A stretch of 64,000 bases of DNA from Chloranthus sessilifolius (lineage: Eukaryota > Streptophyta > Magnoliopsida > Chloranthales > Chloranthaceae). Under the pieces are notes generated by a model, which worked only from the letters and a program-made list of their open reading frames with translations, had not been told where the DNA came from and searched no databases. The position numbers and the translations under genes were made by a program. Of the stretch, positions 11,995-60,561 are shown piece after piece. Numbering within the stretch: position 1 is the first letter of the stretch; every line of letters starts with the position of its first letter. The stretch is taken from positions 77,503,301-77,567,300 of the forward strand of contig CM037592.1 in the NCBI GenBank assembly GCA_021018995.1, given 5' to 3'.

Positions 11995-12199
11995 GGGTAT
12001 ATAAGGACCCACTGCTCCCCAGGTTAAACAGGGCGCAACTATTAGTTGCGCCAGTGTTTTTCTCCCCCAGGTTGAGCCTAGCGTAACTATTAATTATGCC
12101 AGCACATTTTGGTCCCCATTTATGCCTGGCGCAACTAATAGTTGCGCCAGTACATATTTTCTGGGATTTCAACCTGGCGCAACTAATAGTTGCGCCACA
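11995..12199 (-). promoter_or_regulatory. Palindrome array plus TATA box, promoter of the antisense DUF7745-like gene
   Basis: Four copies of the 25-bp palindrome begin near 12031, 12078, 12126 and 12174, a pitch of about 48 bp; the second is degenerate. On the - strand the copy nearest the gene is followed about 25 bp later by TTATATA (around 11997-12004), then about 130 bp later by the ATG at 11864. This spacing fits a promoter with a start site near 11970. The same palindrome clusters occur in the LTRs. Confidence 0.6.
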
Positions 12200-12539
12200 C
12201 TACAATCCCCCTCTTCAGCCATCCCAGTACCTAGCTGTGGGGAGTTACACCGCTTTTGTTTTTTTCACACACCTCCTTTCACTAACAGTTTGGCAATTAT
12301 TTTGCTTATTCATATGCAGGACTGATCCTATATCAAAGCATACGCCCAATGAGTCGCTTTCTGAGAACATTTTGGGCAAACACATCGAAGAGTTCATGGC
12401 ATAAAATCAAAGCAGAAATTCTAAAAATATTTTCCAAAAATAATGATCCAAAGTATCACATCAACCATCCCCAAAATGATTAAACAAACCCAAATCGAAT
12501 TCCAAAGAGTACTGAGTTTTCAAAATAAAAACTAAAAGC
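12200..12539 (-). other. Spacer between the two antisense genes (element A)
   Basis: This holds the presumed 3' untranslated sequence of the PMD gene (stop at 12540) and the far-upstream region of the DUF7745-like gene. No ORF with recognisable content. A GTGATACTT block around 12446-12456 (- strand) resembles the sequence that follows the 3' hairpins in element C. Confidence 0.4.
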
Positions 12540-15004
12540 CTATTCCTTGCTCGTGCCCTTTGATTTCTTACGACGGCGAGAGGAGCACTGGAAGGCCTGA
12601 ATGTCCCCCACCCTGGACCACGCCTGCGAGATCCTACTGAGTAAAGAATGCGACTCCTTAGCACGAGCACGTTGCAGGGCACAGTCAAAGTCAAGAGTTA
12701 GGGTCAATTAAGGGACAAATGATAATGAAATGAATGAGAGGAGTAGAGCAGCAAGGTACTCACCGTCTCCACCTCCCTAAGCTCTGCAAGATGACGATGA
12801 TACTCTGCATATTCCATGGTCGAGTTGAAATCCTACGTTTAGAATGATATAACATCAATTATCAGGGCAATCTTAAAGCATGTACAATAGGAGGCTGAAA
12901 CGGAAGGAGATTGGGTCGTCAGTAGACTTACCCTTGGAACCACCTCAGGAGGAGGGACACGGGCTGCCTCAACAGAAAGTCGTGCTTGTCGATCAACGTC
13001 CACACAGAGGCCCGAAAGGAAGCTGTCATCCAGGCGTCGGAAGGTCCCATAGACCACAGGTGGATCGCCACCAGGGATACTAGCATGAGAGGTACCCGAT
13101 GGACCAGCACCTGAGGAGCCCTCGCCCGAGGGACCCACACCAGAAGGGTCAGCATCGAAGGGATCTTCCCCTGACATATCAACTGCACCCGTCCCGCCTT
13201 CACCATCCGAATCATCCCCTGGAGCAAACTATGAACAGAACGAAGATTCACTTAGAAGGAATGAAGGGCCGAACTAAAGTATAAAGGGAACTAATCAAAG
13301 CTAAGAAGAATTACTTGAACGAGTGGGCTGCCGAACGCAAGAAAATTGGCGCTAGGTACAAAGCGCGACAAGATAAACCGGTATGGCAGGCACTCGTACT
13401 AAAGATGATAGTCCCCGGGCACATGGAGAGCATGGATGGGAAGCCCATTGTTGGAGAAGGCCATGATAAGCTCCTCGATACTGCTAGCGGGATACCAAAC
13501 ATCCGTCAGAGGGTCCACAGGTATGGCATAATAACCCTAGAATTGGTGCACGACTCGCTCCCCCAGATAATAGAATTTGGCCCATGCTCCATAGAAGAAA
13601 ATGATGCGGTGATTGTTAAATAGGCGGGAAGCACCTATAGCTACTCGGTCCCAGAAGGGGGATGCAAGGTACGGGTCAGGGAGGATCTGCCTAAGTCAAA
13701 AGAAAAAAGAGAGAATCCAAGCAGTTAGCACATCTGTAAAAGGGGATTCCCGAGCTAAGAACAAACAAAGTTGAAAGAGAGTTTCACCTGCTCAGGAACC
13801 ATCAAGTCGAGTTGGGACCTCAGACCTGTCTCCAAGTGCTTTAAACCCACATCATGGTGCCAGGCCTGATTCCAGTTGTTGAGGAGGGGATAGGTGAGCA
13901 CCTCTGAGAAAAGAAGTGGGCGCCGAAGGTGAAAGTGATGGTATCCCCATACCTGAAAAGGGGGGCATTGCACAAGAGCGGGTCAGTAGCGTATATGGAT
14001 CATTAAAAAAAAATGGCAAAGACAAAGGAATGAGGAATTACCTCCAGGGCGGCCCAAAATCCAACAGCAGACTTTGAATCCTTGGTCGTGACCCAAGACA
14101 AATTATACATCAGCCATGCATACCCTGCCCCTCCCCAGTCATACCTGTGGACGTCACCCCAGTTGTCCATCACACTCAGCAGGGCTAGGCTGACTCGGCC
14201 ACCCCTCGCATTGGTGAAAAGGGTCTTGCCAAGCAGGACTAAGAGAGTAATGCGGGCTAGGACGATCGCCCACTCTGGCGTGATGTAGAGCACCCTGTCT
14301 GGCTGACCTAGATCCACTAACTCATCAGGTGTATAAAGTGAGGTTAGCCAAGACATCTTAACCTCGGTGCCATGTGTCTGCCCGCGAGGAGGATAGGCCC
14401 TAATCAATCGAATGATGCCCTCTTGACTCGACACCGTGAGATTAGATAATGGTATCCCCCCTATCCTGATGCCGGTAATCGTGACCCAGTCGACGGGTGT
14501 CAAAGTCATCTCTGCATATGGCATGTGAAAGGTCATCGTCTCGGGGCAAAGCTGTTCAATCAGATCTTTTAGATAGGCAGCGTCGGCCCTCATGGCGGGG
14601 CAAGATAGAAATTCTCTGAAGCCCACCTGTGCCAGGAGGACCTTTACCAAGGGAGGGATGTAGAGGTAGAACTCGTGAAAGTTGAGCCACCCCCCGCGAA
14701 ACGCAATGTTGGGCAGGTCTTGCACCCAAGAAAATGCGCATCAGACCACAGAGGCAAAGCAAAAAAATAAACTGCACAATGGAAATAAATTGAACCTCTC
14801 TTTTACCTTGCTCGCAATCTCGAAATTTGAAATGTGGGTATGTTGTTGGTGAAGGAGGCCGACTCGGGCGGCCTCGCCCCGCATCTTGAGCCATGGGCCT
14901 GCTCTCCGATCTACCCAGGTGAACTGCTCCCCCCGTGGGCCGTACACTATCTCAGGCCCCTCCTCGTGGCCCTCCTCAGGAATATGCTCACCCTCGCCTG
15001 ACAT
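12540..15004 (-). pseudogene. Antisense plant mobile domain (PMD) gene, 7 exons (element A)
   Basis: PMD proteins occur in plant genomes (MAIN/MAIL1 family, roles in silencing) and inside transposons. Likely exons on the - strand: 15004-14807 (start MSGEGEHIPEEG), 14718-14042, 13952-13788, 13690-13315, 13228-12932, 12832-12764, and a last one ending at a TAG at 12540-12542. Exon 2 carries the diagnostic blocks PETMTFHMPYAEMTLTPVDW, ITGIRIGGIPL, VLLGKTLFTN and WGGAGYAWLMYNLSW. Exon 3 starts VWGYHHFHLRRP. The tail is acidic, then charged and helical. Donors GTAAAA, GTAATT, GTGAAA, GTAAGT and GTGAGT, with mostly polypyrimidine-AG acceptors, support splicing. Exon 4 has two TAG codons, the exon 1/2 phase does not match, and I found no acceptor for the last exon, so the copy is dead. 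Confidence 0.7.
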
Positions 15005-15759
15005 GTTGGGGCAGCAAAAGGCAACCACATTAGAATAGATCAGTGGTAAAGGACAGTTTTTGTGCTACATACCAAGGGAAGGTAAGTATGCTTACCCTCT
15101 CGCTGTTCATGATCAGGAAGTAAAGATGCACACATACATAGGCAAAAAAAAAAAGAGCACAAAAAAAAAACAACAAAATCCCTTTTGGGTTGAAAATGCA
15201 AAAAAAAAAATCCCCTCCGTTCTATCTTAGAATGTAAAGAAAAAAATAACAATAATAACAATAATAATAAAATAAACCCCCCTTTCTTTTATGTTTAAAA
15301 ATAAAAGCCATTTAAAAAAAAAAAATCGTCATCAAAACCAAAGGATCCTTCCTTTATGCCAAAAAAGGGGGGTTTTAGATAAAGCAAACAAAAAAATCCT
15401 TTTCTTCATGGTTCATAAAATCAAAAACACAAATAAACTCCTTCAAAAAAAATCCCTCCCTTTATGTCCATAAAAAAAAAATCCTCTTTTACAAAAAAAA
15501 AAAACTAAAACCAAAAAATATATATAAATCAATGCCTTAGTTTTCAAACAATAAAATTTTTAAAGGCAAAATCCTTTTCCTTAATTACGTATAAGAAAGA
15601 AAATCGAAAACAAATTCCCTTGATTAGTTTTCAATATATATAGGAACCAAAAATTGTTTTTTATTAACCTTTAAAAAAGAAACAAAAAAACAAACAAAAT
15701 TTTTCCCTTTTTCTAAATAGTATCCTTGCTTGGTATTCAAGAAAAAAACAAAGAAAACC
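15005..15759 (-). other. 5' non-coding/intron region of the antisense PMD gene
   Basis: A/T-rich with many runs of A and repeated blocks of the type AAAATCCCTCCCTTTATG (15290-15560). On the - strand a donor-like GAGAGG|GTAAGC lies near 15094, so a short untranslated exon may precede the ATG at 15004. No coding content seen. Confidence 0.4.
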
Positions 15760-16481
15760 TGTGACAGCCTGACTTTTCCCCTTCTCGAAAATGGGAAAGG
15801 TCGTGCCGTCGGATCACCTAACATGATCTTGTCATACAAGGGCATTGTGTACAAAGTGTTATATATGCGGAAGCGAATTTAATTAACTCTGATACGAAGA
15901 AATATGACAACAACTGATATCCATTCCTTTATCTAAAGTAGTAAATTAAATAGGAAATATAAACAGAAAATATACTTGAAGTAGTAAACTATCTTAATTC
16001 ATACTGTTGTTATACATGTTTAAAATCACTACTCTCTCTCTCTCTCTAAAACCTCTCAAGGAAAGAAGTCCTCAGCAGAACCTTCCTCCTCGTCCTCCTC
16101 AGGCTGGTAAGTAGGAACAGCCTCGTGCTCAGGGTCTTGAACAGTATCTGCAGCTAAGACATAAAGTCATAGGATGAGCTATCATCAAAGCTCAGTAGGG
16201 ACAATTAAGATGCTAATTTATATAAGAGATTATTAATTCATATCTAGATGCAAAAATAAAACGAAGCACATGTCATCTTATATTATGTCTATTCTAGCAT
16301 CAATATATCCTAGCAGTAAATCACAGACAAGTACTAATTCATGCAATTATTGTATCATGCTGACAATGCTGACATACTCATGCTAACATGTTCATGCTGA
16401 CCAAATATGAGTACTGACAAGGAAATCATGCGGGATAATATCAAGGAATCATGCTGAAACCAGACATGTAAAAGGACAAGA

Positions 16482-16680
16482 AAATCAAGCTCCCGAGTAG
16501 CGGGATCACTTGTCTCCCGAGTTAGCGGGATCACTTGGACTGAGATATTAAGCCCCTGAGCAAGGTTAACAGGGTCACTTGACTCAATAAATCAAGCCCT
16601 TGAGCTATGTTAGCAAGGTCACTTGAGACGAGACTGGTCAAGCCCCTGAGCTAAGTTAGCAGGGTCACTTGGCTGAATCC
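16482..16680. repeat. Tandem repeat, units of about 30-55 bp
   Basis: Five units share the pattern CCYGAGnnnGTTAGCnGGGTCACTTG. The first two are short (CCCGAGTAGCGGGATCACTT); the next three are longer, each beginning AAGCCC and ending GGTCACTTGR. Non-coding. Variation in length suggests slippage followed by divergence. Confidence 0.7.
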
Positions 16681-17680
16681 AAAGCAAGCGAGTGTCAAGA
16701 CGAGATCATGTACGAGATTCAAGTATGCGAGAACATCATACACATATATACCTCAAGTATGCTACATCATGTAATAACTCAAAAGTGTCTCAAAGCTTGC
16801 CTAGCATAACTGAGCTTCATATGCTTGTACATAACGAAAACTAGCATACTCAACAATAACATAGTATGTTTATATCCGTTTATTCCATAAAATTGAGCTA
16901 ATACTTTATTAAAGCTGAATTATTAAATGAACATAACCAAAACTAACATAGCATGGTCATCGTATTTACTTTTTAGTAAAATTGAGCTCGCAATTATCAA
17001 AGCTTAATTTTCAAAACTATCCTATCACATCTGAACTCTCAAAGCTGAACGATCAAGCTAACATATTCAAATTGACATTGCATGGCCATATAACTTCATC
17101 CATTTTCAAGACTAGTATATCGATTTCAAAATCAGATATTACATCAGATAGTACATCGGAACACATATCTCATCAATGATATCAATCACTTGATGAACAG
17201 AACTATCATATTTTATGGTACTAGCATATTCATTCTTAATTTAAACTGAACTGAACTCCTAGTAATGTCTCTATCATTATTCATGCCAAAACTAATATGC
17301 GTATAGGTCTACATATGCTCATGTCAATATCTTGCTTAACTAGACGAGAATCAGAACATACCATATAAATTAGAAAGGTAATTTCCCTACCTTAAGATCA
17401 AGCCTGTGCGTTACATTTTATACTTTGCATTTGCATTCATGTGATCACACGCATCCAAGCTAAGTCATCGGCACGAGCGTGTCATGTGCACCAAGTATTT
17501 AAGTCATTGACGTATAGATTGGTTTTAGTATAGTTTAATGGCTTCCAAGGTCATTATAGACCTTATATAAGTCTCCTAGATGGGTCTTACTCATAGGAGT
17601 TAAGGCCTTAAACACATAGACATCATTCATATCAGCACAAAGCATAAACAAGGCCCAGAAATAGGGTTGCCACCATAAGT

Positions 17681-17950
17681 AATAGGGGTTGCCGCGGCAA
17701 GCTCTTCTGTTGAGGACCTTGTCACGACTTGACACCAAATTTTGACCCTTTAAACGTTACATTCAGGAATTTATTAAAACACGAAAGTTGTAGGGCTCGT
17801 TGTCCCCTTTCCAACACATCAAGAATCGTGCCATTTGAAGTTTGGGGTTAAACGTTATAACGAAAATACGGACCAAAGGTCTGAGCACACTGTTGTCGCG
17901 GCAAGCCTGAGTATCTTGCCGCGGCAAGCCTGTAAAGTTGCCGCTGCAAG
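17681..17950. repeat. Palindrome cluster CTTGCCGCGGCAAG
   Basis: A 14-bp perfect palindrome CTTGCCGCGGCAAG occurs near 17912, with close variants near 17687, 17893 and 17935. The last three are about 21 bp apart. The sequence is G/C-rich in an otherwise A/T-rich region. No coding frame explains it. Confidence 0.6.
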
Positions 17951-18739
17951 TCTATCAAGCCAGGCTTGCCAGGGTATTTTCTGCTCTACTTTGGCTTCTT
18001 TTAACATAGGCAATTGGCTGGTTATTCATATATATATTTCATATATATATATATTGCATAGAAAATTAGATTTTTTTATTTGTTTTTGTGCGAAATTTTT
18101 GGTGTATTTCTATAAGAAAGATGGGTTTTGAAACCCATTGCAACCTGTGCTTCATTGTGCTGCTGATTTGGTCTCAGAGAATCGACACCACAGACTGATA
18201 CTTTATCATCAAGTATGTTCGTTGTTCGTTGTATCTTTTGGTGGACTTGTGATTACGATAATGCCGAACGTGTGTCGGTGTCGAGTTCATCGAGTTCGTG
18301 AGAATGAAGGCCGCAATGAACTCTTCGCGACCCAGTGACTACCTTCGCACTCCTCGCGATTAAATTACAAGTCACCTTCATTGAATTTATGGGATTTTAA
18401 GTTGAGCATCGATGTTTCTTGGCTGTGGTTTTACAGAATTTGCAGTAAGGTTTGAAGGAGGAAGAAGAATGCGTGTGGGGGTTTCATCTCGTTTGCACTT
18501 GGCGTGCATGGGATTAGAGGGTGACTCATAGCTACGTGGAGTCAAATGGTGAACTTAAAACATCTTATAAGCTGTTAATGGCTGGGGCTTTGTGTAAAGC
18601 CGGCTTTTGGTTTGAATTTGTATAGGCATGTAACTTATATGCATATAAGCCAAAAGGGAATAATAGAAACTGGCATATAAATCCTATACACTCCTCAAGT
18701 GTATTAGTACTTTTAGACCTTTATTAATTGTGTATATGG

Positions 18740-18821
18740 TTGCCTCAAGCGCTGAGGCAACATACATTACTTGCCTCAGGAGCTGAGGCAACCACTAGGC
18801 TTGCCTCAGATGCTGAGGCAA
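18740..18821. repeat. Three-copy palindrome array TTGCCTCA-n5-TGAGGCAA
   Basis: Copies at 18740-18760, 18771-18791 and 18801-18821, with a pitch of 30-31 bp. The arms TTGCCTCA and TGAGGCAA are perfect in all three while the five loop bases vary (AGCGC, GGAGC, GATGC). Conserved arms with a free loop indicate selection on the inverted repeat, either as dimer binding sites or as RNA hairpins. Confidence 0.7.
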
Positions 18822-19258
18822 CGCTTTTGTTTGCTTGATTTTGGTTAAATGGGTAAGAACATTATGTGTCACACATGCCGATGCATTATTTCGACAATGC
18901 GTGAAGAGCTATTTTGTTTTAATTCTTTTTTTTTTTTCTTTTACAAAAACAAATTCTCATTATTGGGTGACATAGATAGTGTGACTTATCAAGTGAAGTA
19001 TAGTTTTGTCAACTGTTCCAAAACCCCTTTTCTAAGCACCACTAAACACATAAATAAAAATTATTATTGTTTACAAATATTAGTAAAACCCATAAAACCA
19101 CAAAAAAAAGGGGCATTATTAAGGAAAAACCATTCACACATCATCAATCAACATGCTTACAATGGAAATAAACTATTTTTCATCTAGGAATGCAAGATCA
19201 TGATCATATTTGCAAGAAAAAGCAAGAAAATCAAAGAAAATAGGTGTTAAATGGTTAC

Positions 19259-19450
19259 CTCTTAGAAGGAAAAGGGTCTTTGATCTAGCGTGAGCCGACG
19301 ATCGATCCACACAAGCAAAGCAACGACAACGGCAATGGGGCATGCGTAGAGGCAATGTAAAGGAACCCTAGGAGGGGGGCGGTTTTCAGTTTCAAAGAAG
19401 AGGGAGGGGGAGAAAATTTTGAAATAAAGCCCCCCAGCCCGAACTTGGGC
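19259..19450 (-). other. Probable first (5' untranslated) exon of the antisense PMD gene
   Basis: Downstream (- strand) of the TATA-like TTTAAATA at 19452-19459 the sequence runs about 190 bases to a good donor, CTAAGAG|GTAACC (exon end 19259). No coding frame matching the PMD is seen, so this would be an untranslated exon whose intron extends to the coding exons at 15004 and now contains insertion E. The link between promoter and gene is inferred from position and direction. Confidence 0.4.
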
Positions 19451-19632
19451 TATTTAAATTCCCCCAGCCAAGCCTGGCGCAACTAATAGTTGCGCCAGAC
19501 AAAATGTTTCCCACCTTTTTCTTGGCGCAACTAATAGTTGTGCCAGGCTATTTTGAGGCCCCTACTGGCCTGGCGCAACTAATAGTTGCGCCAGACACTT
19601 AGGCCGGGTCTTAGGCCTGGTATGCGCCAGAT
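19451..19632 (-). promoter_or_regulatory. Palindrome array plus TATA-like box, probable promoter of the antisense PMD gene
   Basis: Palindrome copies begin near 19473, 19522 and 19570, with a partial fourth near 19617, again at about 48-bp pitch. On the - strand the last copy is followed within about 15-20 bp by TTTAAATA at 19452-19459. The arrangement copies that at 11995-12199, which argues that both are promoters of the same regulatory class. Confidence 0.55.
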
Positions 19633-21207
19633 GGGAAGACCAGTCCCCCCACTCTTTTTATTTATTCTGTCGCTCCCGGCAGATGCACGCGCTCCCAAGG
19701 CGGCATTTCGATCATCCTTCAACTTGCTAAGAGAGCCATGCTAAAATAAAAGTAGATCGAGATCAATGAGCACCCCGGTCCTACACAGGAAAATATAAAG
19801 AAAAATCTAAAAAAAATTCTCACAGAGAAGCCGGAAGTATTCACAAGAAAAATCCACATAAAATAATAGCTTCAAAAATTCCAAAAAAATCGCAAAAAAT
19901 AACAGTTGAAATTTTTTTAAAAAATTGCATAAAATGATAAAAAAATCAAAAACAGGTTTGTATTCCCCACAGAGACGCACAAGCGTAAGGCGGTAAAATA
20001 TCAATATTTTATCCGCAATGCAGTTGTGCCATACTAAAGTCCTGAGTCAGAGGTTCCCCTCAGATTTTTGGATCCTACTTTAAGGAAGGAGCAACAGTGT
20101 CGGTCTCGGTCAAACAGTCAATGTTTCGATCGAGTCGACTCCACGGCTAAATCTTTGTGATGAGTGTTCTGTTTTGGATTCATGTGAACTTAAGTGTCTT
20201 AAGCTTCAGATTCTTCATTGGAAAAGGTCAATCATTGGTTGAGACCAACATGTTGAGAATGAGATTACGTGTCAATCAAATTATGTACAATCATGCATTC
20301 AGAAGGGTTCATTTCCCTTTTTATTTTTTGCAGGCTTAAAACCTGTATGGGCAGCGGTATCCCTGGAAAGTGTATGCCATACATCTGGGTATCCTTATGA
20401 TGGTCATTTATTCTCGTAAATTATACCCGGGCGGGTCTTTGTCGGGGCTTCCATCACCTTTGTTGTTGCTTATTACCCCTGATGGGTGCATGATTATACA
20501 TAGTTAATTGATGTGTATGATCATTGTCAGTAGAGACTAGGATTGGAGGTCCCTTCATGGAGATACCATAATATTTGGTTGGATCTGTTCAAGGTAATCA
20601 AAGCTGGATGCTCTAGGCCATGTTAATCTAAAGAATGCTTTCGAAAACGACAAGCACTACTAAAAAGCGTTGTGACATCTATTCACTTTGCTCGGGCAGT
20701 CATGCTAAATAAACTTCGGGGTCGATGGGTTCGCCCAAAGACCTCGAACCCTGCTTTCAGCAGGGGCACCCGTAAACAGTCAGATGGGGCCATCAAATGC
20801 CTCATAGGATTGAACGCAAACTGTGGAGCCTTGTGTATGCTTACTTCGTGCCTATCTTTGAATATGGGTCGATCCCCCCTTTTTTTACTCACAAAATTGT
20901 TGCATTCAGAATGAATTTTAAAACATAGGATACCTTCAAAATCATCTCGAGAAGTAAATATCTTTCCCGACTATAGGGAGTTCACAACTCATTCCACCTC
21001 GATTATGCCCAATAATGTCGTTAAGCGCTTGGGAACCGATTACCTCGAGAAACGAATGTTTAGCCTGACATCCAGTTCTTTCATTTTCTCACTGTGTTAC
21101 TCATATGATGTTTGAAGTTCATTCTGAATGTAGCGGACCCATCAGTAATGCCTTGGGCCTCTTCGGATGTCTCTTTTCTTTGGCATTCGATCATTAGTGA
21201 TTGGATG
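19633..21207 (+). other. 3' non-coding region of element A before the polypurine tract
   Basis: From about 19960 this aligns with 57670-58958 of B. It has no credible ORF. A hairpin-like block lies at 19975-20030 (GGTAAAAT facing ATTTTATC, with outer CACAGAGACGC and GCAGTTGTG), the single-copy version of the duplicated block at 57240-57760 in B. The left part (19633-19960) is A-rich with no B counterpart that I can see. Confidence 0.5.
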
Positions 21208-46408: not shown

Positions 46409-46573
46409 CCTGACACAAGTATTAGTTGCACCAGTGCAAAAAATGGAATTTATAAGTGGCGCAACTAGTTGCGCCAGCTTTAAAATCCACATTTTTATCT
46501 TGGCGCAACTAATAGTTGTGCCAGTGTAAAAATAGTGCCCTGCAACCTGGGCGCATGTATTAGTTGCGCCAGG
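46409..46573 (+). promoter_or_regulatory. Palindrome cluster in the leader of element B
   Basis: Four copies near 46409, 46457, 46501 and 46547 (pitch 44-48 bp). The second is a shorter perfect palindrome GGCGCAACTAGTTGCGCC, lacking the central bases. This cluster lies inside the transcribed leader, not in the LTR, so it is a separate array. The corresponding part of A is outside the window. Confidence 0.65.
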
Positions 46574-47277
46574 TCTGCTTAACAGCACCCCAGCCCGAAT
46601 CTGTGGCCTTCTTCACCTCCCAAGTCCCCCGATCAATGTGCTTAGTGCCTTGTTTAGGTCCCGCCATCTCTGACACCCAATACGCCCCCGCCGGTCAAAA
46701 GAGGGCAACTTCTTTTTGGCTCATTCCGAGGGATCAGGTTATCTACCTCGATTTTTATGCCTTCAATAGATCGAAAGTTCTCATTCGATTCTTCCGAAGT
46801 GCATCGGAATCGTCGCCGCGGGTCTTGAATTAAGGTACGAGAGCCACCCGAAAAGGGAATTCCAAGGCCTCAAAACCTTTGTTTTTCAAAACTTTCTCAA
46901 AAAAATTCAAAAAAATATATATATAATCAAAACCTCAAAAATATATATATATAGTTTGTGGTGCCGGCACAACGGCATCATCTTGCCCTCCGTCGCCCCA
47001 TAGTGGAAGGAGGAGGATTTTTGGGCCTTATCCAAGGCACCCTTACCCAACCCGTTCCCGTAGAATGTCGTGGGTAGTGGACCCGACTTACGCCGATCCC
47101 GACTCATCCCTGCCACATTCTCCAACCCACTCCCATTCGGGAGAAGTTTTTTCCACCATCCCCCTCACCCAACCCCCCTTTACCATTACCGGCCCGTTTG
47201 GCACCCCCATTTTCCCAACCGATACCCCCCAAAATATCTAAAGTCCTACCCTCCATTCTCCATCTTTTGGCCAAACC
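46574..47277 (+). other. Rest of leader of element B
   Basis: From 46864 it aligns with position 1 of A. It holds two (TA)n-like stretches near 46915 and 46945 and the block GTGCCGGCACAACGGCATCATC. The frame of the proline-rich ORF is open upstream but stops at a TAA conserved with A. Confidence 0.45.
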
Positions 47278-49997: not shown

Positions 49998-50640
49998 GCC
50001 TCCAATCCTGCACCCACACCCGCCAGTTATCAATGACCTGCGCCAGCCCCATTTCAACTACCACCATACACCACAACCCCCATCGATTACCCTTTAAGCC
50101 ACCAGGCCCCCAATCCAACACCCGCACCCATCAGTTATCAATGGCCTGCGCCCACCCCATCACCCTCAATTCAGCCACCGACAAACTCCACCACCCCGGT
50201 CAATTACCTAATGGCCCATCAGACCCCCCATCTGCCGCCAGCACCCACCAGCTATCAATGACCTACTTTTACCTCCTTCCCTTTAATGCCACCACCCTCA
50301 AGCTTCACCACCCCCATTTGGCCTAATCTTTCCACCCAACCCGCTACCACCGAGGTGAATCAAGTATTGCCCAACAGCTCCTCAGCTGACAGTACAAATG
50401 CCTCAAGTACCGGCAGCCATACCTTTCCAACTCTCGAGACTCACATATGATCCTCATCAGGTCTCGCTAAGCTACGAGTTAACAAATGTCAATGTCGGCA
50501 GCAGCAGCAGCAGAGAAGGGGCAGTAGATTTTATTACTAGGTCAGGGAGGATATCAAAGCAGCCAAAAGCACCAGCAGTACCACAACCCAACCCGAAGGA
50601 AAGAAAGACAACGTAGTGAACCCCTTTGAGAAGATGAGTC
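49998..50640 (+). pseudogene. Proline-rich linker gag-protease (element B)
   Basis: Counterpart of 3375-3794. The encoded repeats of the type TTPINYPISP and ASYQWPAPT alternate between frames. Copy B has one more repeat unit than A near 50040-50110. No catalytic motif. Confidence 0.5.
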
Positions 50641-51457
50641 GAGAACATATACTGGAGACTCAGCTGAGAAAGATGTCTGCCATATCACTATATGGGATTT
50701 GTTGATGACGTATCCACTCCATTTCAAAGCATTAATGGGGGCATTAAAACATGCACATGTATCACTACAAGTCAGCCCAGATGAAGTCGGGCAGATAATT
50801 GGTCAAGTAATGGCTCCAAATTCCATTTCATTCTCTGATGCCGATTTACCTGAGGAAGGGTGGAGCCATTCAAAATCCTTAAACATAATCGTTGAGTCTG
50901 GAAATATGGTAATTCCCTTGGTACTAATTAATTATGGGTCTGCATTGAATATATGCCCATTAAGAACCGCCACCAAAATCGGGGTTGATTCGTGCATGTT
51001 AAGGCCCACCAGAACCAGCGCTAGAGGGTTTGACAATACCAGGAGAGAAATAATGGGAGAAGTTGATCTTGAGTTGTTGATAGGGCCAATGACCTTTTCC
51101 ATCTTCTTTCAAGTCATGGATATCAAATCCTCATTTAATCTATTGTTGGGGCACCCATGGCTGCACGAGGTCGGAGCTATACCTTTCACCTTGTACCAGA
51201 AACTCAAGTTTGTGTCTGGGCACAAGATCGTTACAATCATCGGGGAGGGGCACGGTGAGAAAGAAAAGGCCGCCAATAGCATCGAAAGACCTAATATGTT
51301 AGATATACTGCACACCGCTGAGGATGTCGACCTTCACAGTTTCGAATATGACATATCAGCAATACTCCCAGAACCCATTGAGGGCATCATGCCTAAAACA
51401 GGAGGCGGAATGGTAGCGGCAGTGGCAATGCTCCAAAAGTGGGGTTATCAGAAATGA
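50641..51457 (+). pseudogene. pro: Aspartic protease region (element B)
   Basis: Open from 50699 to 51457, but a one-base deletion near 50680 shifts it against the preceding MSREHILETQLRKM. The active-site loop reads LVLINYGSALNI: the catalytic Asp is Asn (a G-to-A change), Gly kept. Core SSFNLLLGHPWLHE follows. It ends with the start of the G-patch-like motif at a TGA (51455-51457). Confidence 0.75.
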
Positions 51458-51959
51458 AGGGGTCTGAGACCCAGATTATAAGGAAGAAAAGAGCCAGTTG
51501 TCGCCAAGGGGCAGAAGGTCCGATTCGGGTTAGGATACAAGCCCACAGAAGAAGAGGTCCGAGAGGCCAAAGAGAAAGCCAGGGTCGCCACGGCTGCAAG
51601 AGCTCAAGGAATCAACATAGAAGAGAAACCTCGCCCTAGGCCACACATCAGGGATCCCTTTGTCAGCGCAGGGGCCGTAAAGATCGATCAAAATAGAGTA
51701 ACACATTTGACCCCACACAAACCCACAGTCCCAATTCATCCCACCAATCCCCAGATCTCCCTTCCCAGCTTGGAGATAGATTTGGCCGCATTATCCCTTT
51801 TTGAGGAACGACGGTCGGTACCTGAACAAACCCTCCCTGTGGTGAATCAGCACAAAACTGAGTTATGGTTTGAGGACATGATCTCAGATGAAATGGGGAT
51901 CAATATGATGGAGGCTGACTCTAATGAGCCATATTAGTCAGCACCCTCCATCCCAACAG
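51458..51959 (+). pseudogene. G-patch-like linker (element B)
   Basis: GLRPRL, GRKEPV and FGLGYKPTEEE continue the motif begun at QKWGYQK, with stops where A has Gly or Gln codons. The acidic and Pro-rich rest matches A (TVPIHPTNPQISLPSLEIDL). A TAG at 51934-51936 lies shortly before the intron donor. Confidence 0.5.
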
Positions 51960-52235
51960 GTAAAGAAGCGGCCCCTCAGGTATGCAACTGGGCATCTTCG
52001 CTCCAAACTCTAGAAGCAGGAAGTGGCCTAAAGTTTGGCACCTATTTCTTAAAAAAATAACCTAAAAAAAGTGAGATAAGCCCTTGGTAGGCAATACCTT
52101 GTATATATAGCAACCCGCCTTGCCAAGGGTCCATCTCCGAAGAAAACAAAAATCTCAAAAACATGAAAAAAACACAAAACCCCAAAAACATTGAAAAAAT
52201 CTAAAGTCCAAAAATATTGTCATTTAAAATTCTAG
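51960..52235 (+). other. Putative pol intron (element B)
   Basis: 276 bases from AACAG|GTAAAG to AAAATTCTAG. Donor, acceptor position, length and phase agree with A (5187-5463). The interior is A-rich with stops in all frames and includes TTGTATATATAG as in A. Confidence 0.65.
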
Positions 52236-53150
52236 AAAATGTCCCACAAAAGGATGCCTTAATCAAAATGCCCGTCCCACGTGAAATCGACCCCTTCCCT
52301 GTAGAAATACAAAAAGAGATAGGGATCACGAGTCTGGACGAGGATGTCCCCTTAGAGGAGCTCCCCAATGAGCTCCTTAACTGATTTACCGACTTTGAGT
52401 ATGGCCCTACCCCCATTGTCGAAGAGACCGAAGACGTCAATCTAGGAACTGAGGAGGTTCCTAGGATGACCAAAGTCGGAACGTCACTATCTCCTGAGGG
52501 AAGAAAAAGCATGATCGACTTCCTTCGGTCTTACCAAGACGTTTTTGCATGGTCATACGAGGACATGCCTGGTTTGGATACTGATTTGGTCGAGCATGAG
52601 TTGCCCCTCTACCCTGATATGAAGCCAGTCAAACAGAAGCTGAGACGACTCCGACCCGAGTGGATGTTGAAAGTCAAAGACGAGGTCATCAAGCAGTATG
52701 ATGCGGGGCTTCTCATGGTATCCAAATACCCGCAATGGCTAGCCAATATCTTACCTTTGTCGAAGAAGGACAGAAAGGTCCGCATGTGTATCGATTTCTG
52801 TAATTTGAACAAAGCGAGCCTAAAGGACGATTTCCCATTACCACACATCAACATCTTGGTCGATAACACAGCTAAGCACGGGATGCTTTCTTTTATGGAT
52901 GAATTCTCAGGATACAATCAGATCAAGATGGCAGAGGTTGATCCCGAGAAGACAGTGTTCATTACCCCCGAGGAACCTTTTGCTATCGAGTCATGCCATT
53001 CAGGCTGAAGAATGTCGCTGCAACGTATCAGAGAGCTATGACTGCACTATTTCATGACATGATGCACTGAGAGATTAAAGTATATGTCAACGACATGATA
53101 GCCAAATCATCAAAGCGAAGCGACCATTTGGTAAACCTTCAGAAGCTGTT
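52236..53150 (+). pseudogene. pol: Reverse transcriptase (element B)
   Basis: Reads through HELPLYPDMKPVKQKLRRL, RMCIDFCNLNKAS, LSFMDEFSGYNQIKMAEVD, which is better preserved than A here. One-base deletion near 52970 before the FCYKV block shifts the frame. The catalytic box is VYVNDMI: the first Asp of YVDD is Asn. A stop lies at MMHxEIKV. A further deletion follows near 53155. Confidence 0.85.
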
Positions 53151-53843
53151 TGAAAGGGACTACGACTGAATCCATAGAAATGTGCATTTGGTGCTATGTT
53201 AGGAAAACTTCTAGGGTTCATCGTCAGCAGGAGGGGGATCGAGGTCGACCCAATCAAAGTCAAAGCCATCACTAAAATGCCACCGCCGTCTACTGAGAAA
53301 GAGGTTAGAGAGTTTCTGGGCAGAATACAGTATATCAGTCGGTTCATTGCACAGCTAACTCCAATCTGCATGCCGATCTTTAAGTTACTAAGAAAGAATT
53401 CGCCCGTTGAATGGAATGAAGATTGTCAGGCAGCGTTTGAAAAAATCAAAAGCTACCTCCTTAATCCATCTGTTTTGGTACCACCTGAGCCAGGGAGACC
53501 ACTCTTGATGTATCTCTCCACGACGGAAGTTTCGATGGGATGTGTCTTGGGGCAGCACGATGAAACGGGAAGAATAGAGCAGGCCATTTACTATCTGAGC
53601 AAGAAGTTTACTGATTATGAAGCGCGCTACTCTCATCTGGAGAAAGCATGCCTGGCTCTTCTATGGGCTACTCAAAGGCTCCGCCACTACTTGTTATCTC
53701 AGGCGGTTATGCTCTTGGCCCGAATGGACCCATTGAAATACCTATTTAAAAAGCCAGCTCTCACTGGACGAACAGCACGATGGCAACTTTAATTATCTGA
53801 ATTCGACATCACGTACATCACTCAGAATTCGATCAAGGGGCAG
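53151..53843 (+). CDS. pol: RT thumb and pol RNase H (element B), open segment
   Basis: 53196-53792 is open for 198 codons: GKLLGFIVSRRGIEVDP, FLGRIQYISRFIAQLTPI, LLRKNSPVEWNED, YLSTTEVSMGCVLGQHDETG, YLSKKFTDYEARYSHLEKAC and RHYLLSQAVMLLARMDPLKY. RNase H catalytic positions seem intact. The ATG at 53196 is internal to the polyprotein. A TAA at 53790 (Gln or Leu position in A) ends the segment. Confidence 0.75.
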
Positions 53844-54600
53844 GTGCTTGCTGATCATCTTGCTAACAATCCTTTACCTGATTATGAGCCTTTAAGAATT
53901 GAGTTCTCCGATGAGGAAATCTTGTTCATGACAGAAGACGATACAGAAGAAGTAGAAGAATCATGGGTAATGCACTTTGACAGGGTAGCAAATGTCAAGG
54001 GTCAAGGAGTCGACGCCATTCTGATTTCGCCGAAAGGATCCCATGTACTGGTCTCTATCAAGCTCAACTTCCCTTGCACTAATAATATGGCTGAGTATGA
54101 AGCTTGTGCCGTTGGTCTGCAGGCGGCTCGAATGTAACTCACCTTCGAGTATTTAGCGATTCACAGTTAATCATATGCTAGATGAATGGTGACTGGAAGA
54201 CAAAAGACGGGAAATTGATCCCCTATCATGAACACCTCGAGGATCTGATAGCTTGCTTCTAAGATGTGACTTTCTCATACGTCCCCCGAATAAGGAATCA
54301 CTTTGCCGACGCATTAGCATCTTTGGCATCATTGATTGAAATCCCCTATGGTGTGGAGATGAAGCCGATCATGATCGAGCAGAGGAATGAGCCGGCCTTC
54401 TGCTTCCAGATTGAGGAACCTACAAAGCCTGATGATGAGCCACCTTGGTTCTCAGATATTAAGAATTTCCTCGAGATTCTAACTTTCCCAGAGGATACAT
54501 CCAAGACAGACTGATGAACCATTCAACGTTTAGCGGCAAATTACGTCATTTGCGGGGAATGCCTCTACAAGCGATCATACAATAACATCCTACCTAGGTG
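53844..54600 (+). pseudogene. Second RNase H (element B)
   Basis: WVMHFDRVANVKGQGVDAIL keeps the first Asp but the DGA motif is DRV; TNNMAEYEACAVGLQAA follows. A deletion near 54130 (relative to the QAALDLNITRL block of A) shifts the frame. The rest, with RNHFADALASLASLIE, is in the frame of 54266-54514. Linker PPWFSDIKNFLEI leads to the integrase. Confidence 0.75.
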
Positions 54601-55696
54601 CCTCACTGAAAGCGAAACGGTCAATATTATGAAAGAAATCCATGAGGGAGTATGCGGAGCCCACGTCAACGGTCAGATGCTCGCTAAGAAAATCCTATGA
54701 CAGGGATACTTTTGGACCACCATGGAATCGGATTGTTGCAAACATGTTCAAAAATGCTACAAGTGTCAAGAACACTCCAGTCTGATACACGCTCCTGCCA
54801 TTGATCTTCACTGCATGACCACTCCTTGGCCATTTGCTACCTGGGGCCTTGACGTTGTCGAAATGATTAATCCGAAAGCATCAAATGGACATCGGTTCAT
54901 CCTTGTCGCCATTGAATACTTCACCAAGTGGGTAGAAGCGGCGTCATATGCTAACATCACGGCCAGTCACATTGAGAAGTTACTCAAGAACAATATTGTG
55001 TGCTGATTTGGAGTACTAAAAGATATCATCACGGACAATGGCATAAACTTTGCGAATAAGCGCATACGAGACTTCTGCGAGCAATACAAGATCAAGCACC
55101 ATCACTCATCCCCTTATCGGCCTCAAACTAATGGAGCCGTGGAAGCTGCGAACAAGATAGTCATCCGCATCCTTGAGAAAATGGTCGTCACTTATCGAGA
55201 TTGGAGTGAAATGCTGCCATTTGCTTTGCGGGCCTACCGAACGTTGATCCGTACCGCTACAAGGGCAACACCATTCTCCCTTGTGTATAGAACTGAGGCC
55301 ATCCTCCCGGTAGAGGTTGAAGTACCCTCACTCCGAATCCTCATAGAATCAGGCTTACCCGAAGCAGAAAGAGAGAGATCTCACTTTGAACAATTAAACT
55401 TATTGGACGAGAAGAGACTCCTAGCCTTGTGCCATACTCAAGTTTACCAAGGGCAAATCGCACCCGCTTATAATAAACGTGTCCACGGTCGAGATCTAAA
55501 GGTAGGAGACACTGTACTGAAGAGGATCTTCCCATCCCTCCATGCCGATCCAAGAGGAAAGTTCACACCAAACTAGGAAGGACCTTACGTCATCCGAGAA
55601 GTGCTGTCGGGATACGCCATCTGCCTCGCCACCGTGGACGGAGATCAGTTTCCTGAGCCCATCAACGCTGGATACGTCCGACGGTTCTACTCTTAG
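54601..55696 (+). pseudogene. int: Integrase (element B)
   Basis: Zinc finger GAHVNGQM (second His replaced by Gln) with CYKCQEH; core Asp in WGLDVVE, Asp in DIITDNGINF, Glu in NGAVEAANK, all three catalytic acids retained. Breaks: TGA near 54699, TGA at 55005-55007, TAG at 55575-55577 (Trp). Tail GPYVIREVLSGY and final TAG at 55694-55696. Length agrees with A. Confidence 0.85.
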
Positions 55697-56340
55697 TCCA
55701 TCACGACAAGGTAAATGTTTGTGAAACAGATACGTGACTGCTTAAGAACCACCAGAAAGAGGTCATCATTTCAAGCACAGTAGCCCAAAAGCATCCCTAA
55801 AAATAATGATATCCTTTACTACCCCATCTGAGCCTGGGCCTTTCTTTCAATAAACCCCTTCCCCAAAAAAAATGCGTGTACATATACCAAAAAAAAGAGG
55901 AGAGAGAAAAGATGCATGTGTGTAAAGTTATTATCAAATTCAAAAAAAAAATCAAAAATGTAAAACCTCAAAAACAGATTGTCTGAAATGGAGCAAAAAG
56001 AATAACAAAAAAAAATATGTGTAGAAGAATCATGGGGCATGTACAGTAAGATCCCCAAGGAAGATAGTATGTTGAGAAAACTGAAGCCGTATCAAAGAAA
56101 CACCCTTTTAGCCCAGCATACCTTCAAATCCTAACCTAACCCATGGCCAAGCTACGCCTTGAAGGAAGCCCTCTTTGTAGGTTCACAAGCAGTCATAATA
56201 TCTGTTAAAGTCAACACAAGTCGAGCTGTGAGACGACATCTGAACCCCATCTAGTTGGTTGTGATGGAATCGACGTCTATGTCGTGGCACTTAAAAAAAA
56301 GAAAATTATAATAAAATAATAATACAAGCTCAAAGCAAGA
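55697..56340 (+). other. 3' untranslated region after pol (element B)
   Basis: Aligns with 8945-9567. A-rich stretches at 55865-55915 and 55940-56020. No ORF of interest. Confidence 0.5.
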
Positions 56341-56480
56341 TGGACGTGATGAAAACCCGAAAGGGCGCTACGGGTAAAACAACGAGTTTATGTGAATCAG
56401 GTGAAAACTCGAAAGGGCGCTTGGGGTAAGAGAGCTAAACCCATGGACGTGGTGAAAACCCGAAAGGGCACCATGAGTAA
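56341..56480 (+). repeat. Three copies of the GAAA stem-loop motif (element B)
   Basis: Copies at 56341-56377, 56393-56430 and 56444-56480 correspond one to one with 9568-9707 of A. In the second copy TCAGG faces CTTGG and in the third CGTGG faces CCATG; both pair if G-U is allowed. The CCCGAAAGGG core is kept in two of three copies; the middle one has CTCGAAAGGG. Confidence 0.7.
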
Positions 56481-57209
56481 AAAGAGGGGAGATAAATATA
56501 AAAAAAATAAGAGAAAAAATTTGAAAAAGAAAAGGTTGGAACGATTGATTAAATGTTTAAGGAGCCCTCTTGGTTACTCTCCATGATCCCTTTTTAGGGG
56601 CCGCTCATGCTAGTTCGAATCGGGTCCCGACCAGAATTGTCTTTGTGAAATCGCATCGCCAAACGTATGACCAGAGGTAAGGAGAAAGGTTTAACTCAAT
56701 CCAAAGGGATCAATGTTTCAGCCTTGGTAAAATTCGAAAACTCACTCAGGTCTGATTGCATGAAAGAGCTCGACTATGCTCAAAATGGGACCCGCTACTC
56801 CGTTTCACTATCAAGGCATTAAAAAAAAAAAAAAGAAGAAAAGCCAAAAACAAAAAATAAAAAAAAATCTAAACACCAAAAAATGTGTATATATTTCTAC
56901 TCATTTTCATGTACATATTTCCAGCATCATATTTCAATCTCAAAAATGAAGAAAAATAATAAAAAATCTCTAAAAACAAAAATCCAAAAAAATATCTTGA
57001 AAATGAAAAAGTGTAGGTAGAAATCTACTTTTTCTTTTGTTGTTTAAGATGCATTTTCTTTATATGTATAAACAAAAAAGGGATTGACGTTGTCTCGAGA
57101 ATGTGCAGGAACATCACATGGTCAAAAGCCTCGAAGTGGGCAACTTCTCAGAGATGGACAAATCAGATAAAGCATCTCACAACCGACGTCAGGTCTAACA
57201 CAAAAAAAA
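56481..57209 (+). other. Non-coding region and deletion junction (element B)
   Basis: Matches A up to about 56815 (poly-A run), then a stretch of A-rich DNA with a hairpin-like GTAGAAATCTAC at about 57018, ending near ATGTGCAGGAACATCAC, which resembles TGTGTGCAGGAAGGAG at 10350 in A. The antisense genes of A would lie between here and about 57210, so B has lost or never had them. Confidence 0.5.
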
Positions 57210-57960
57210 AATGATGAATGAAAATAATTTTGAAAAGGAAAAAAATCTATGTTTTCATGTCTAAGCACAGTTACGCACATGCGTGTTCTGATGCGGTAAA
57301 ATGTCAATATTTTACCGGCAACGCAACTGTGCAAAATTAATGTCTTAGGTCTAAGGTTCACCTTAGATCCATGGATCCTATTTCAAAATAGGAGCGACGG
57401 TGTCAATTTCGGTCAAACAGTCAATGCTTGGATCAGATTGATTCCATCGCTAAATCTTCACCCTGATCGTTCCATATTTTGGTTTCAGGTGAACTTGAGC
57501 ACGTTGGATTCAGTTTTGTCGCAAACTATTACTGAGGCACGGGCTCTTGGAATGCGTTGTCTGGGCGTGCGCCTCCCGGGGTTCGAGGTCTAGATAATGC
57601 TTATTTTAAAAAAAAATGAAAAAAAGCAATCTTAAAAAAAAAAAAAAAAAAGAGAAAAAGAATAAATCTGTGCTTCCTCACAGAGTTACGCACATGCATG
57701 TTCTGATGCGGTAAAATGTTGATATTTTATCAGCAACACTACTGTGCTATAATAACGTCCTAAGTCTAAGGCACGCCTTGGATTCTGGATCCTACTTCAA
57801 CGAAAGAGCAACGGTGCCAGTCCCGGTCAAACAGTCAATGTTTCGATTGAGTCGACTCTACTGCTAAATCTTTACGATGAGCACTCTGTTCATATGAACT
57901 TAAGTGTCTTAAAGCTTCAAATTCTCCATTGGAAAAGGTCAATCGTTGGTTGAAACCAAC
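57210..57960 (+). repeat. Tandem duplication of a hairpin-containing block (element B)
   Basis: Two copies of about 390-420 bp begin near 57240 and 57660. Each has TTACGCACATGC, then GGTAAAATG facing ATATTTTACC (or ATTTTATC), an outer GCACAGTT facing AACTGTGC in the first copy, then GATCCTA and GGTCAAACAGTCAATG. Element A has one copy (from about 19970). Downstream of the first copy TCCTATTT faces AATAGGA. Confidence 0.65.
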
Positions 57961-58958
57961 CTATTAAGAATGAGATTACATATCAATCAAACTATGTGCA
58001 ACCATGCATTCAGAAAGGTTCATTTCCCTTTTATTTTCTGCAGGCTTAAAACTTGTATGGGTAGCAGTATCCCTATAAAGTGTACGCCATGCATCTGGGT
58101 ATCCGTATGATGGTCGCTTTTCCTCGTAAATTATACTCGGGCGGGTCCGAGTCGGGGCTTCCATCGCCTTTGTTGTTGCATATTGCCCCTGATGGGTGCA
58201 TGATTATGCATAGTTAATTAATGATTATGATCATTATTAACAGAGACCAGGATTGGATGTCCCCCTTTTGGGAGTTGCCCAATGTTTGGCTGGATCTTCT
58301 CAAGGAAGTCGAAACTGAATACTCTAGGTCATGCTGAGCTGAGGCATGCTTTCAAAAAAATGACACGTACTCCCAAAAAGTGTTGTGACATCTATTCACT
58401 TCGCTCGGTTGTCATGCTAAATAAACTTTGGGATCGATGGGTTTGCCCAAAGATCTCAAACCCTGCTTTCAGCAGGGGCACCCGCGAATAATCCAATGAG
58501 GTCATCAAATGCCTTGTAGGATTAGACGTAAACTGTGGAGCCTTGCGTATGTTTACTTCACACCTATCTTTGAATGTGGGTCGATCACCCCTCTTACTTA
58601 CGAAGCTGTTGCATTTAGAATGAATCTCGAACATCAATCACCTTCAAATCATCTCGAGAAGCGAACATTTTTCTTGACTAACGAGCTTTCGCAACTTGAG
58701 AGGCGAACATTTTTCCCAGCTATTAGGCTTTCGCAACTCATTCCACCTCGGTTCTGCCCAGTAATGTCGCTCAGTGCTTGGGAACCGATTATCTCGAGAA
58801 ACGAATGATTAGCCTGGCACCCTAGGGCTTTCGTTTTCTCACCGTGTTACTCACCTGATGTTTGAAGTTCGCTCTGAATGTAATGGACCCGTCAGTAATG
58901 CCTTGGGCCTCTTCGGATGTCTCTTTTCTTTGGCATACGATCATTAGTGATCGGATAT
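57961..58958 (+). other. 3' non-coding region of element B before the polypurine tract
   Basis: Aligns with 20280-21207 of A. It includes a 46-bp tandem duplication at about 58661-58740 (GAACATTTTTC and GCTTTCGCAACT, each twice) absent from A. No gene. Confidence 0.55.
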
Positions 58959-58972
58959 CAAAGAGGGGCATC
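58959..58972 (+). promoter_or_regulatory. Polypurine tract of element B
   Basis: CAAAGAGGGGCATC directly before the TG of the 3' LTR, identical to that of A at 21209-21222. Confidence 0.75.
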
Positions 58973-60561
58973 TGTAGACACCCAAATTTTGCCCAAGGCC
59001 TGATCGAAACACATTTCAAGAGAGGCACATTTTTGAGCTTTTGATGGCATATATGGAACCCTTAGGAATCACCTCAGACCCTTAGGAATCACCGTAGATC
59101 CCTTAGGAACCTATCCCGAACCTTTAGAAACCAATCCCTCCCCTCAGAACCCATTTCAAACCCTAAACCTAACCTTACCAGGCTCTAGATGAAGAGTGGT
59201 GCACCGAAACTAGCTACGGCACTCTACTGCAATCGAGTCTCATACCATTGAGGAGTAGAGGTCGTCAGCTTTCCAACGATCCAATAATTTCCCCAATCGG
59301 AGGTATACATCAAAAGATGTGACAAACCGAATCCGGGGGGCAGAAAGTTAAAATCATGTGGGCCCCCTTAGGGACTTGGCACAACTAATAGTTGCGCCAG
59401 TAATAAACTTTGCCTGGCGTAACTAATAGTTGCGCTAGGCCAATTCTCCCTCATTTTAAGCTTGGCACAACTAATAGTTGTGCCAGATTCAAAAGTGGGC
59501 CCCATCCTCGCGAGCTGACTTTCAGGCATTGTTCATTACTATTTTACTGTGCATTTACCTAGCGCAACTAATAGTTGCACCAGGCATATGAACAGTAACT
59601 ATTGAATTTTACCTCGAATTTCATGATTGGGGTTTAACTTGTAGACCACCTTGACCTTTGGGGTGTATTTTGCTAGTTCTGTTGCACCCATTCACTACCT
59701 ACTTGCAATCCCTTAGGTGGCTTAAGGCCTCACCCCATCATCCACCATTGGAGGACCTTCTCACACATTTCAAGGCTCTAAAAATCATAAGAATCCTTAG
59801 ATGTGAGATTACCTAATTGCTAAATCTATTTAGCTCTTAAGTGGTCTCCTAATCCACTCATCTCCTATAAATAGTGCCCTCCACCCTTGGTTTAGGGGTT
59901 GAGAATTTCTACCAAAGAGAGAAAGAGCTTAAAGTGAGAAGATTTTTCTCCCTGTGGTGCACACCCCCCATACAAAAACCAGAATTTCAAAACCTCTTCC
60001 CACCCTTAGCATTTCATAAAAAACCCTTAGGTTAGGTGTGTGACCCCCTTGCCTTCCTTTCCTACCTATTAGCTTCAAGCCTTAAGAGCTAGAACCCCAT
60101 TTTCCCCCATACAAAGCCTTCAAGAGCTCATCAAAGCAAGCCACGCAAGGCTCTCCTACGGTGCTACAAGGGCTCGAGGGCTCCGGCTCTCCCCTTGCTT
60201 CTCTTATCTCCTTTTGCTCTCCCTACCCTCTCATTTTGTGTCGTTACGCCGCCGAATTTTCTGTAGGAACGAAGGGGCACAAATAGGATTGGAGGCCCAT
60301 TTGGGCAAGAGGGAATCATTTCCTTTTCTTTTACTTAATTTTAATTTTGGCCATTAGTAGAGACCGCGTTAAGTGGGTTGATCGGGTGCCTAACACCTTC
60401 CCGATCGATAACCGAAGCCCCTACCCAAGAGCCTTTGGTGTGGACCGGATTCAGAGTCATATTTTTAACACTTCGGTGCTCATAAAAATGAACTAGGTAT
60501 CCCGGGACTCCAAAAGCTCTAGGAATCGCGACGGGATCATCTCGATTCCCACGATTGCACA
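58973..60561 (+). repeat. 3' LTR of element B
   Basis: TGTAGACACCC to GATTGCACA, 1589 bp. TATA box TATAAATAG at 59866-59874. Relative to the 5' LTR it lacks about 38 bp near 60522 (the GGTGGCGACTC to GCATCGTC block), leaving CTCTAGGAATCGCGACGG. The remaining differences are mainly transitions. Confidence 0.85.
59376..59584 (+). promoter_or_regulatory. Palindrome cluster in U3 of the 3' LTR of B
   Basis: Copies near 59376, 59413, 59462 and 59559 at the same intervals as in the 5' LTR. Arm changes (GGCACAAC, GGCGTAAC, TTGCACC) are again mostly at CG dinucleotides. Confidence 0.65.

Follow-up and report, generated by a model that had tools for sequence, protein, structure and literature searches.

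Arrays of one 25-bp palindrome in a Tat-type retrotransposon family of Chloranthus sessilifolius are predicted to be shared protein sites at its LTR and antisense promoters

Introduction

Why does one short palindrome recur, in regularly spaced arrays, at several separate places of a plant retrotransposon? The question is raised by a 64,000-nucleotide stretch of the Chloranthus sessilifolius genome (GCA_021018995.1, contig CM037592.1, positions 77,503,301 to 77,567,300, forward strand; hereafter the window, numbered from its first letter). Two long terminal repeat (LTR) retrotransposons in the window, here called A and B, carry arrays of a 25-bp palindrome in their LTRs, in the leader and, in A, beside the TATA-like boxes of two antisense genes, AS1 and AS2. 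A sequence-only reading of the window had proposed that the arrays are binding sites for a dimeric protein that coordinates sense and antisense promoters, by analogy with the VANC proteins of VANDAL transposons. In this study, we found that the feature is real, family-wide and constrained. The palindromes are probably shared protein sites on duplex DNA, located at the sense (LTR) promoter and at both antisense promoters. This degree of confidence covers the shared DNA sites alone and not the identity of the binder.

Results

The palindrome has the form CTGGCGCAACTA-W-TAGTTGCGCCAG, with 12-bp arms around a central A or T. The window contains 22 full-length copies with 0-5 mismatches over the 24 arm positions, arranged in six clusters, together with a shortened copy (46456-46477), a perfect palindrome whose centre is 3 bp shorter and which still stands in array position. 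At no more than three mismatches, 17 palindromes were found in the window and none in each of 100 dinucleotide shuffles. The six clusters of the sequence-only reading were confirmed by these counts. A search for other palindromes in the window and the stretch upstream of it, L025 (arms of at least 9, centre of at most 4, G+C above 20%), returned six, of which only two, at 18.8 kb, were alike.

The AS1 array (12030-12198) consists of four palindromes at 48-bp pitch and, read along the minus strand, immediately precedes antisense gene 1. The AS2 array (19474-19594) has three palindromes at the same pitch. Four palindromes at pitches of 37, 48 and 97 bp form the U3 array of the 3' LTR of A (21646-21852), and four each, at pitches of 38, 48 and 97 bp, form the U3 arrays of the 5' LTR (44414-44621) and the 3' LTR (59376-59583) of B; CCTATAAATAG stands at 44901, in the 5' LTR of B. 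The leader array of B (46410-46572) comprises three full palindromes and the shortened one. The pitch of about 48 bp read earlier was borne out (47/48 bp), and the LTR values were corrected from 36-37 to 37/38 bp and from 98 to 97 bp. It had also been stated that no coding frame explains the arrays. This held, as none of the six frames is free of stops in the three LTR arrays; in the same six-frame check, two stop-free frames were found in the AS1 array and one each in the AS2 and leader arrays. A coding origin was rejected, the motif being identical on both strands and present in the frame-closed LTRs.

Element A spans -2751, in L025, to 22857. Its 3' LTR (21223-22857, plus strand) is 91.4% identical to its 5' LTR, which lies upstream of the window at -2751 to -1105. 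A has five arrays in all, as two more lie in L025, one in its 5' LTR (-2326 to -2117) and one in its leader (-452 to -334). Element B is an LTR retrotransposon at 44011-60561, with a 5' LTR (44011-45633) and a 3' LTR (58973-60561), both on the plus strand, that are 92.7% identical (Kimura two-parameter distance, K2P, 0.078); a putative primer binding site, TGGCGACTCTGCTGGGGA, read from the sequence, follows the 5' LTR at 45636-45653 (plus strand). The domain order pieced together from A and B is gag, reverse transcriptase (RT), RNase H, a second RNase H (RVT_3) and integrase, with RT_RNaseH at 53178-53789 in B and RVT_3 at 7085-7996 in A, ahead of integrase. This order, RT-RNase H-RNase H-integrase, is that of gypsy and not of copia elements, and the pieced-together pair has the dual RNase H of the Tat/Ogre lineage. 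Within Ty3/gypsy, a dual RNase H characterizes the Tat group (PMC9289625; the papers cited here are drawn on for the parts of their text available to us). By its domains, the family is classified as Ty3/gypsy, and by the dual RNase H as Tat-type. In A, AS1 and AS2 sit between integrase and the 3' LTR. No match to this antisense region (10084-19963) was found in B.

The source genome (2.17 Gb, 32 contigs) contains 3541 exact sites, compared to none for a reversed-motif control, and the inner 21 bases of the motif had no match in IMG/VR. Twenty loci of 10 kb around exact sites, all on contig 1, were picked by the motif from 36 clusters among the matches listed, and their clusters were placed by BLAST searches with the flanks after masking of the palindromes. 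All 46 clusters, 40 from these loci and six from the window, mapped to four places of one Ty3/gypsy family, namely the LTR U3, the leader, the AS1 promoter and the AS2 promoter; one cluster, L024:2455, was ambiguous and matched both LTR and AS2. Clusters at random genome places, a pattern at odds with the sequence-only reading, were seen in none of the 20 loci (one chromosome). A second sample was picked by protein. The search with the AS2 protein gave 13023 first-look candidates, of which 150 were scored, and 16 copies on 13 contigs were taken from the first 26 rows. In 1-kb stretches aimed at the array position, AS2 promoters had palindromes in 16 of 16 (41 copies at no more than six mismatches; 0 for the reversed-motif control). 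AS1 arrays were present in 10 of the 11 stretches that hold the AS1 promoter region (10/16 overall). Four of the six array-less AS1 stretches have no AS1 sequence, L062 ends before the array, and L058 retains only worn remnants of palindromes, with insertions or losses. The first protein-picked loci (L026-L033, of which L026 is the window itself) showed the palindrome in one of eight, because they extend no more than 1.5 kb from the match, a distance that most arrays exceed.

The spacing between neighbouring palindromes (n = 106) was 47/48 bp in 69 cases, 37/38 bp in 16, 96-101 bp in 15 and another value in six. The 37/38-bp and 47/48-bp steps are about one helical turn apart. In A, the putative TATA-like box of antisense gene 1 (TATATA, 11998-12003, minus strand) lies 26 bp from its array, and that of antisense gene 2 (TTTAAA, 19453-19458, minus strand) lies 15 bp from its own; the earlier claim that both antisense arrays end near such boxes was correct, and its range of 15-25 bp is replaced by these two distances. 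Among the motif-picked copies, TATATA or TTTATA stood 25-26 bp from the last palindrome in 7/7 AS1 promoters, and TTTAAA stood 14-16 bp from it in 10/11 AS2 promoters; in the exception, L009, a further shortened palindrome with the same arms and a shorter centre lies between array and box. The distance was kept in 8/10 protein-picked AS1 copies, the other two having an altered box at the same position, and in 14/16 AS2 copies, the other two having no box and a box at 32 bp. In the LTRs, a TATAAAT(A) box was found 272-282 bp downstream of the array in 17/22, and at 317 and 392 bp in two more; the three LTRs with no distance are those in which the scan halted at an earlier TATAAA. The leader array was considered as an internal sense promoter and this was rejected, as TTTAAA follows the array in L021 and in 0/7 other leader copies (70 bases examined). 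A short inverted repeat (GCCCGAGTTCGGGC) was observed just downstream of TTTAAA in the AS2 promoters of L010, L020, L024 and several others.

Constraint is stronger on the palindromes than on the intervening DNA. When copies were compared in pairs, mismatch at A/T columns of palindrome, linker and flank was 0.144, 0.301 and 0.202 in the LTR, 0.127, 0.406 and 0.212 in AS1, and 0.117, 0.199 and 0.264 in AS2. In the leader it was 0.141, 0.160 and 0.173, so that, unlike in the other three places, the palindromes are barely below linkers and flanks. Two loci, L016 and L019, are far from the other copies (the six most diverged AS2 pairs, each including one of them, have a synonymous divergence, dS, of 1.39-1.79). 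Between these two and the rest, identity of palindromes, linkers and flanks was 0.916, 0.742 (384 aligned columns beside 796 gapped) and 0.684 in AS2, and 0.880, 0.462 and 0.697 in AS1. Between places, palindromes are 0.85 and linkers 0.40 identical. These values bear on the possibility that the arrays are functionless tandem duplications spread by element copying. All places lie within a high-copy family, the pitch is regular and linkers within an array are slightly alike, as such duplication would predict. The palindromes nevertheless outlast the linkers between subfamilies and between places, and three of the four places precede a promoter-like box. We rejected duplicated spacers because of the two identities between places, and consider functionless duplication as a whole highly improbable.

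Within the palindrome, the least variable columns are the inner AACTA/TAGTT, with at least 0.97 of letters except for the C of AACTA (0.93); these column counts are based on 125 of 154 copies, with the 29 exact copies from motif-picked loci set aside. The core is CTANTAG, with A or T at the centre, and C>T and G>A changes accumulate at the CpG columns. The exact 10-base inner core was present in 67/77 LTR, 28/29 AS2 and 19/21 AS1 copies, motif-picked exact copies included. The pattern of changes was also compared with what RNA hairpins would leave, since the palindromes might serve in genomic RNA for packaging or dimerization or as a source of small RNA. Their positions suggest that a full-length transcript would include the arrays of the leader, AS1, AS2 and the 3' LTR, and small RNAs of maize Sireviruses are over-represented at the palindromic clusters of the LTRs (PMC10760457). 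Against this, symmetric double changes were not in excess (13 compared to 15.3 expected by shuffling, 125 copies), and changes that keep G-U pairing in sense RNA (C>T, 66) did not outnumber those that disrupt it (G>A, 71; p 0.73, 154 copies). Hairpins also leave the position beside antisense TATA-like boxes unexplained. With neither arm covariation nor a G-U preference, the hairpin or small-RNA alternative raised in the earlier reading is disfavoured, and we regard it as improbable.

We examined the antisense genes beside the arrays. On the minus strand of A, an AS1 coding piece (11310-11771) matches DUF7745 (E 2.2e-4) and the plant mobile domain, PMD (0.0093), and its continuation (11080-11343) matches PMD (9.8e-5). 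AS2 is represented by a PMD piece (14006-14740, minus strand, 4.7e-16) and a weak PMD piece (13758-13982, minus strand, 0.025). A longer AS1 copy from L016, P0001, matches PMD at 2.2e-9. The PF10536 gathering score of 34.9 bits is exceeded by AS2 of the window (59.3), by P0001 (37.4) and by an AS2 copy, P0002 (60.4); the window's own AS1 pieces are below it (15.6 and 22.1 bits). Both antisense genes are thus assigned as genes for PMD proteins, and the two proteins are only remotely similar (22% over 114 residues, E 0.001). Median ratios of nonsynonymous to synonymous divergence (dN/dS) were 0.16 (45 pairs), 0.32 (21) and 0.23 (15), and all 81 pairs were below 1. These ratios indicate that AS1 and AS2 were kept as proteins over the history of the family, under purifying selection. 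In P0001 and P0002, PMD and DUF7745 were the only domains, with no match to DUF1985 at E <=10. TRP28 (PF04195) was not among the matches at E <=0.1 in the window or at E <=10 in the two copies. No homologues of P0001 and P0002 were found in the protein database at E <=0.001 and no solved structure resembling P0001 at E <=1; an AlphaFold model of a single AS2 piece had a mean pLDDT of only 37.9.

Further features of AS2 were observed. Inspected by eye, the sequence at L014:5029-8443 can be divided into several AS2 exons separated by GT-AG introns, of which one falls in the 5' untranslated region (UTR), and the antisense gene closes with a basic tail. Antisense introns could persist because the sense RNA would not splice them. 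At 15300-19300, the distance from AS2 array to PMD exon is 4.7 kb in A, compared to about 1.2-1.8 kb in L012, L014, L015 and L020, and the extra DNA of A contains other short palindromic tandem repeats at 17892-17950 and 18740-18822 (TTGCCTCAGNNGCTGAGGCAA).

A VANC-like role was considered, in which an antisense-encoded protein binds the arrays and relieves its own family of DNA methylation and repressive marks. The arrays lie in noncoding control regions of their own high-copy family, which also has accessory genes, and transposon silencing in the host involves the PMD proteins MAIN and MAIL1 (PMC7156037). Several results speak against it. DUF1985 is absent from both antisense proteins searched, as given above, and likeness of the motif to VANC targets was at chance. 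A shared AGTTG had looked promising as a sign of kinship, and this candidate was rejected when shuffled palindromes did as well in 2845/20000 and 4600/20000 cases for the VANC6 and VANC21 motifs. The C>T and G>A decay at the CpG columns is as expected of methylated copies. The VANC analogy of the sequence-only reading thus found no sequence support, and anti-silencing of this kind appears unlikely. The domain assigned to VANC proteins is DUF1985. That domain is named once in the available text of the VANC paper (PMC5735166); further VANC literature is found in PMC10398659.

The window also contains features apart from the arrays. Two 1.1-kb direct repeats at 34426-38031, 88% identical and 1.3 kb apart, look like the two LTRs of a short element. 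A further LTR-type element occupies 38895-43900 on the minus strand; it has an RT RNase H domain (38898-39455) and no palindrome. An AT-rich tandem repeat with a 34/69-bp period lies at 63155-63576.

Discussion

In this study, the idea that the arrays are coordinating binding sites was upheld in part. The promoter location within one family, the near-fixed distances from the antisense TATA-like boxes, the constraint and the adjoining PMD genes under purifying selection are consistent with it, and its VANC analogy was not supported. A sequence-specific protein would bind the palindromes in duplex DNA, probably as a dimer, given a two-fold symmetric site with 12-bp arms and a central A/T. Arrays near promoters would let one factor act on the LTR promoter and on the promoters of both antisense genes, and the 37/38-bp and 47/48-bp pitches may reflect protein-protein contacts. 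The outcome can be guessed at: the LTR might be activated or shielded from silencing, with feedback on the antisense genes.

As the binder, a product of the antisense PMD genes is the most probable single candidate, although we hold this at somewhat less than an even chance. An element-encoded reader is plausible because the antisense genes were kept as proteins, as judged from dN/dS, and AS1 and AS2 would in that case control themselves and the LTR. A closed circuit of self-regulation or anti-silencing, in which an antisense-encoded PMD regulator reads the 25-bp operator at the LTR and at its own promoters, is tentatively put forward as one possibility. If it is true, PMD proteins gain a DNA target.

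A host transcription factor is nearly as likely a reader as an element protein and fits the known cases equally well; the element would have multiplied a host enhancer site in its promoters. Multiplication of host enhancer sites has reportedly also been proposed for the Tnt1 and Tto1 LTRs. The half palindrome TTAGTTG presumably fits the MYB consensus KTWGTTR, which we counted in favour of a host factor. A MYB site leaves the conserved 25-bp two-fold site unexplained, and we know of no host factor with such a palindromic site, which we counted against it. All fetched clusters lie in one family and none at a host gene, in 20 loci of one chromosome that hold a small part of the 3541 sites. Sirevirus palindromic repeats mainly resemble host stress-factor sites (PMC2829016), which again favours a host reader.

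Several observations weigh against shared binding sites and the role given to the antisense genes. Wear is seen in most antisense copies, with in-frame stops in 7/10 AS2 pieces and in 4/7 and 3/7 AS1 pieces. Copies picked by protein are closely related to A, and the fixed box distances partly reflect homology among copies of one family. The leader array has no conserved TATA-like box and is weakly constrained, with the exact 10-base core in 13/27 copies. Copies beyond 5-6 mismatches were uncounted, which inflates conservation, and the linker identity of the diverged AS2 copies carries the gaps stated with it. Linkers are somewhat alike within an array (0.47 compared to 0.33 shuffled) and slightly between places (0.40 compared to 0.32). 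A short TGGGG-like stretch ahead of the box is common to the promoters of AS1 and AS2, and five AS2 clusters from the fetched loci have weak matches to the leader (37-113 bits). Because of this common stretch and the AS2-leader flank matches, the array modules may stem from an old duplication, and the four places may not be fully independent cases. The prediction of shared sites is kept as probable with these points taken into account.

The nearest known precedent is the palindromic repeats (RMs) of Sireviruses, which are Ty1/copia elements. These have 8-32 short palindromes upstream of the LTR TATA box, with more before the ENV gene in nine of 13 elements (PMC2829016). The present family likewise has LTR arrays upstream of a TATA box and further copies before extra genes, AS1 and AS2. 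Sirevirus palindromes are 10-20 bp long, mostly with a CGG-CCG core, and the ENV gene is in sense (PMC2829016), whereas the present family is a gypsy element of Tat type with a 25-bp palindrome, a CTANTAG core, two antisense PMD genes, a leader array and near-fixed short distances to antisense boxes. The VANDAL system is alike in its short motif arrays in noncoding regions of the own element and in its accessory genes (PMC5735166). Its binding and demethylation are demonstrated, its motifs are 8-9 bp without dyad symmetry and it is a DNA transposon (PMC5735166), in contrast to the PMD proteins, the 25-bp palindrome and the sites of the present family, which are predicted only.

Retand and Grande resemble the family in having antisense genes between pol and the 3' LTR with a proposed regulatory role (PMC11963269, PMC7264820), and the antisense genes of Grande have their own promoter (PMC7264820). 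They differ in encoding TRP28 or gene23 proteins instead of PMD, and the available text of these papers describes no shared palindrome (PMC11963269, PMC7264820). Among literature titles and the starts of abstracts, we found no palindrome common to the LTR and antisense promoters of a Tat-type element, and a paper that describes one may exist. The insulator in the leader of Drosophila gypsy is an array of binding sites read by a host zinc-finger protein. It is like the present family in its leader array, and its sites are different and confined to the leader.

In a screen of plant gypsy elements, no other non-canonical domain was as frequent as PMD (PMC9289625). In the host, MAIN and MAIL1 influence the silencing of transposons and a set of genes whose promoters carry a motif, direct binding being unproven (PMC7156037). 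The 25-mer is a candidate DNA target for PMD proteins. For the antisense genes of Tat-type elements, regulation has been proposed, with no target site named in the available text (PMC7264820, PMC11963269). For the question of what antisense genes do in plant Tat-type retrotransposons, the family of C. sessilifolius supplies a defined 25-bp candidate site that adjoins them.

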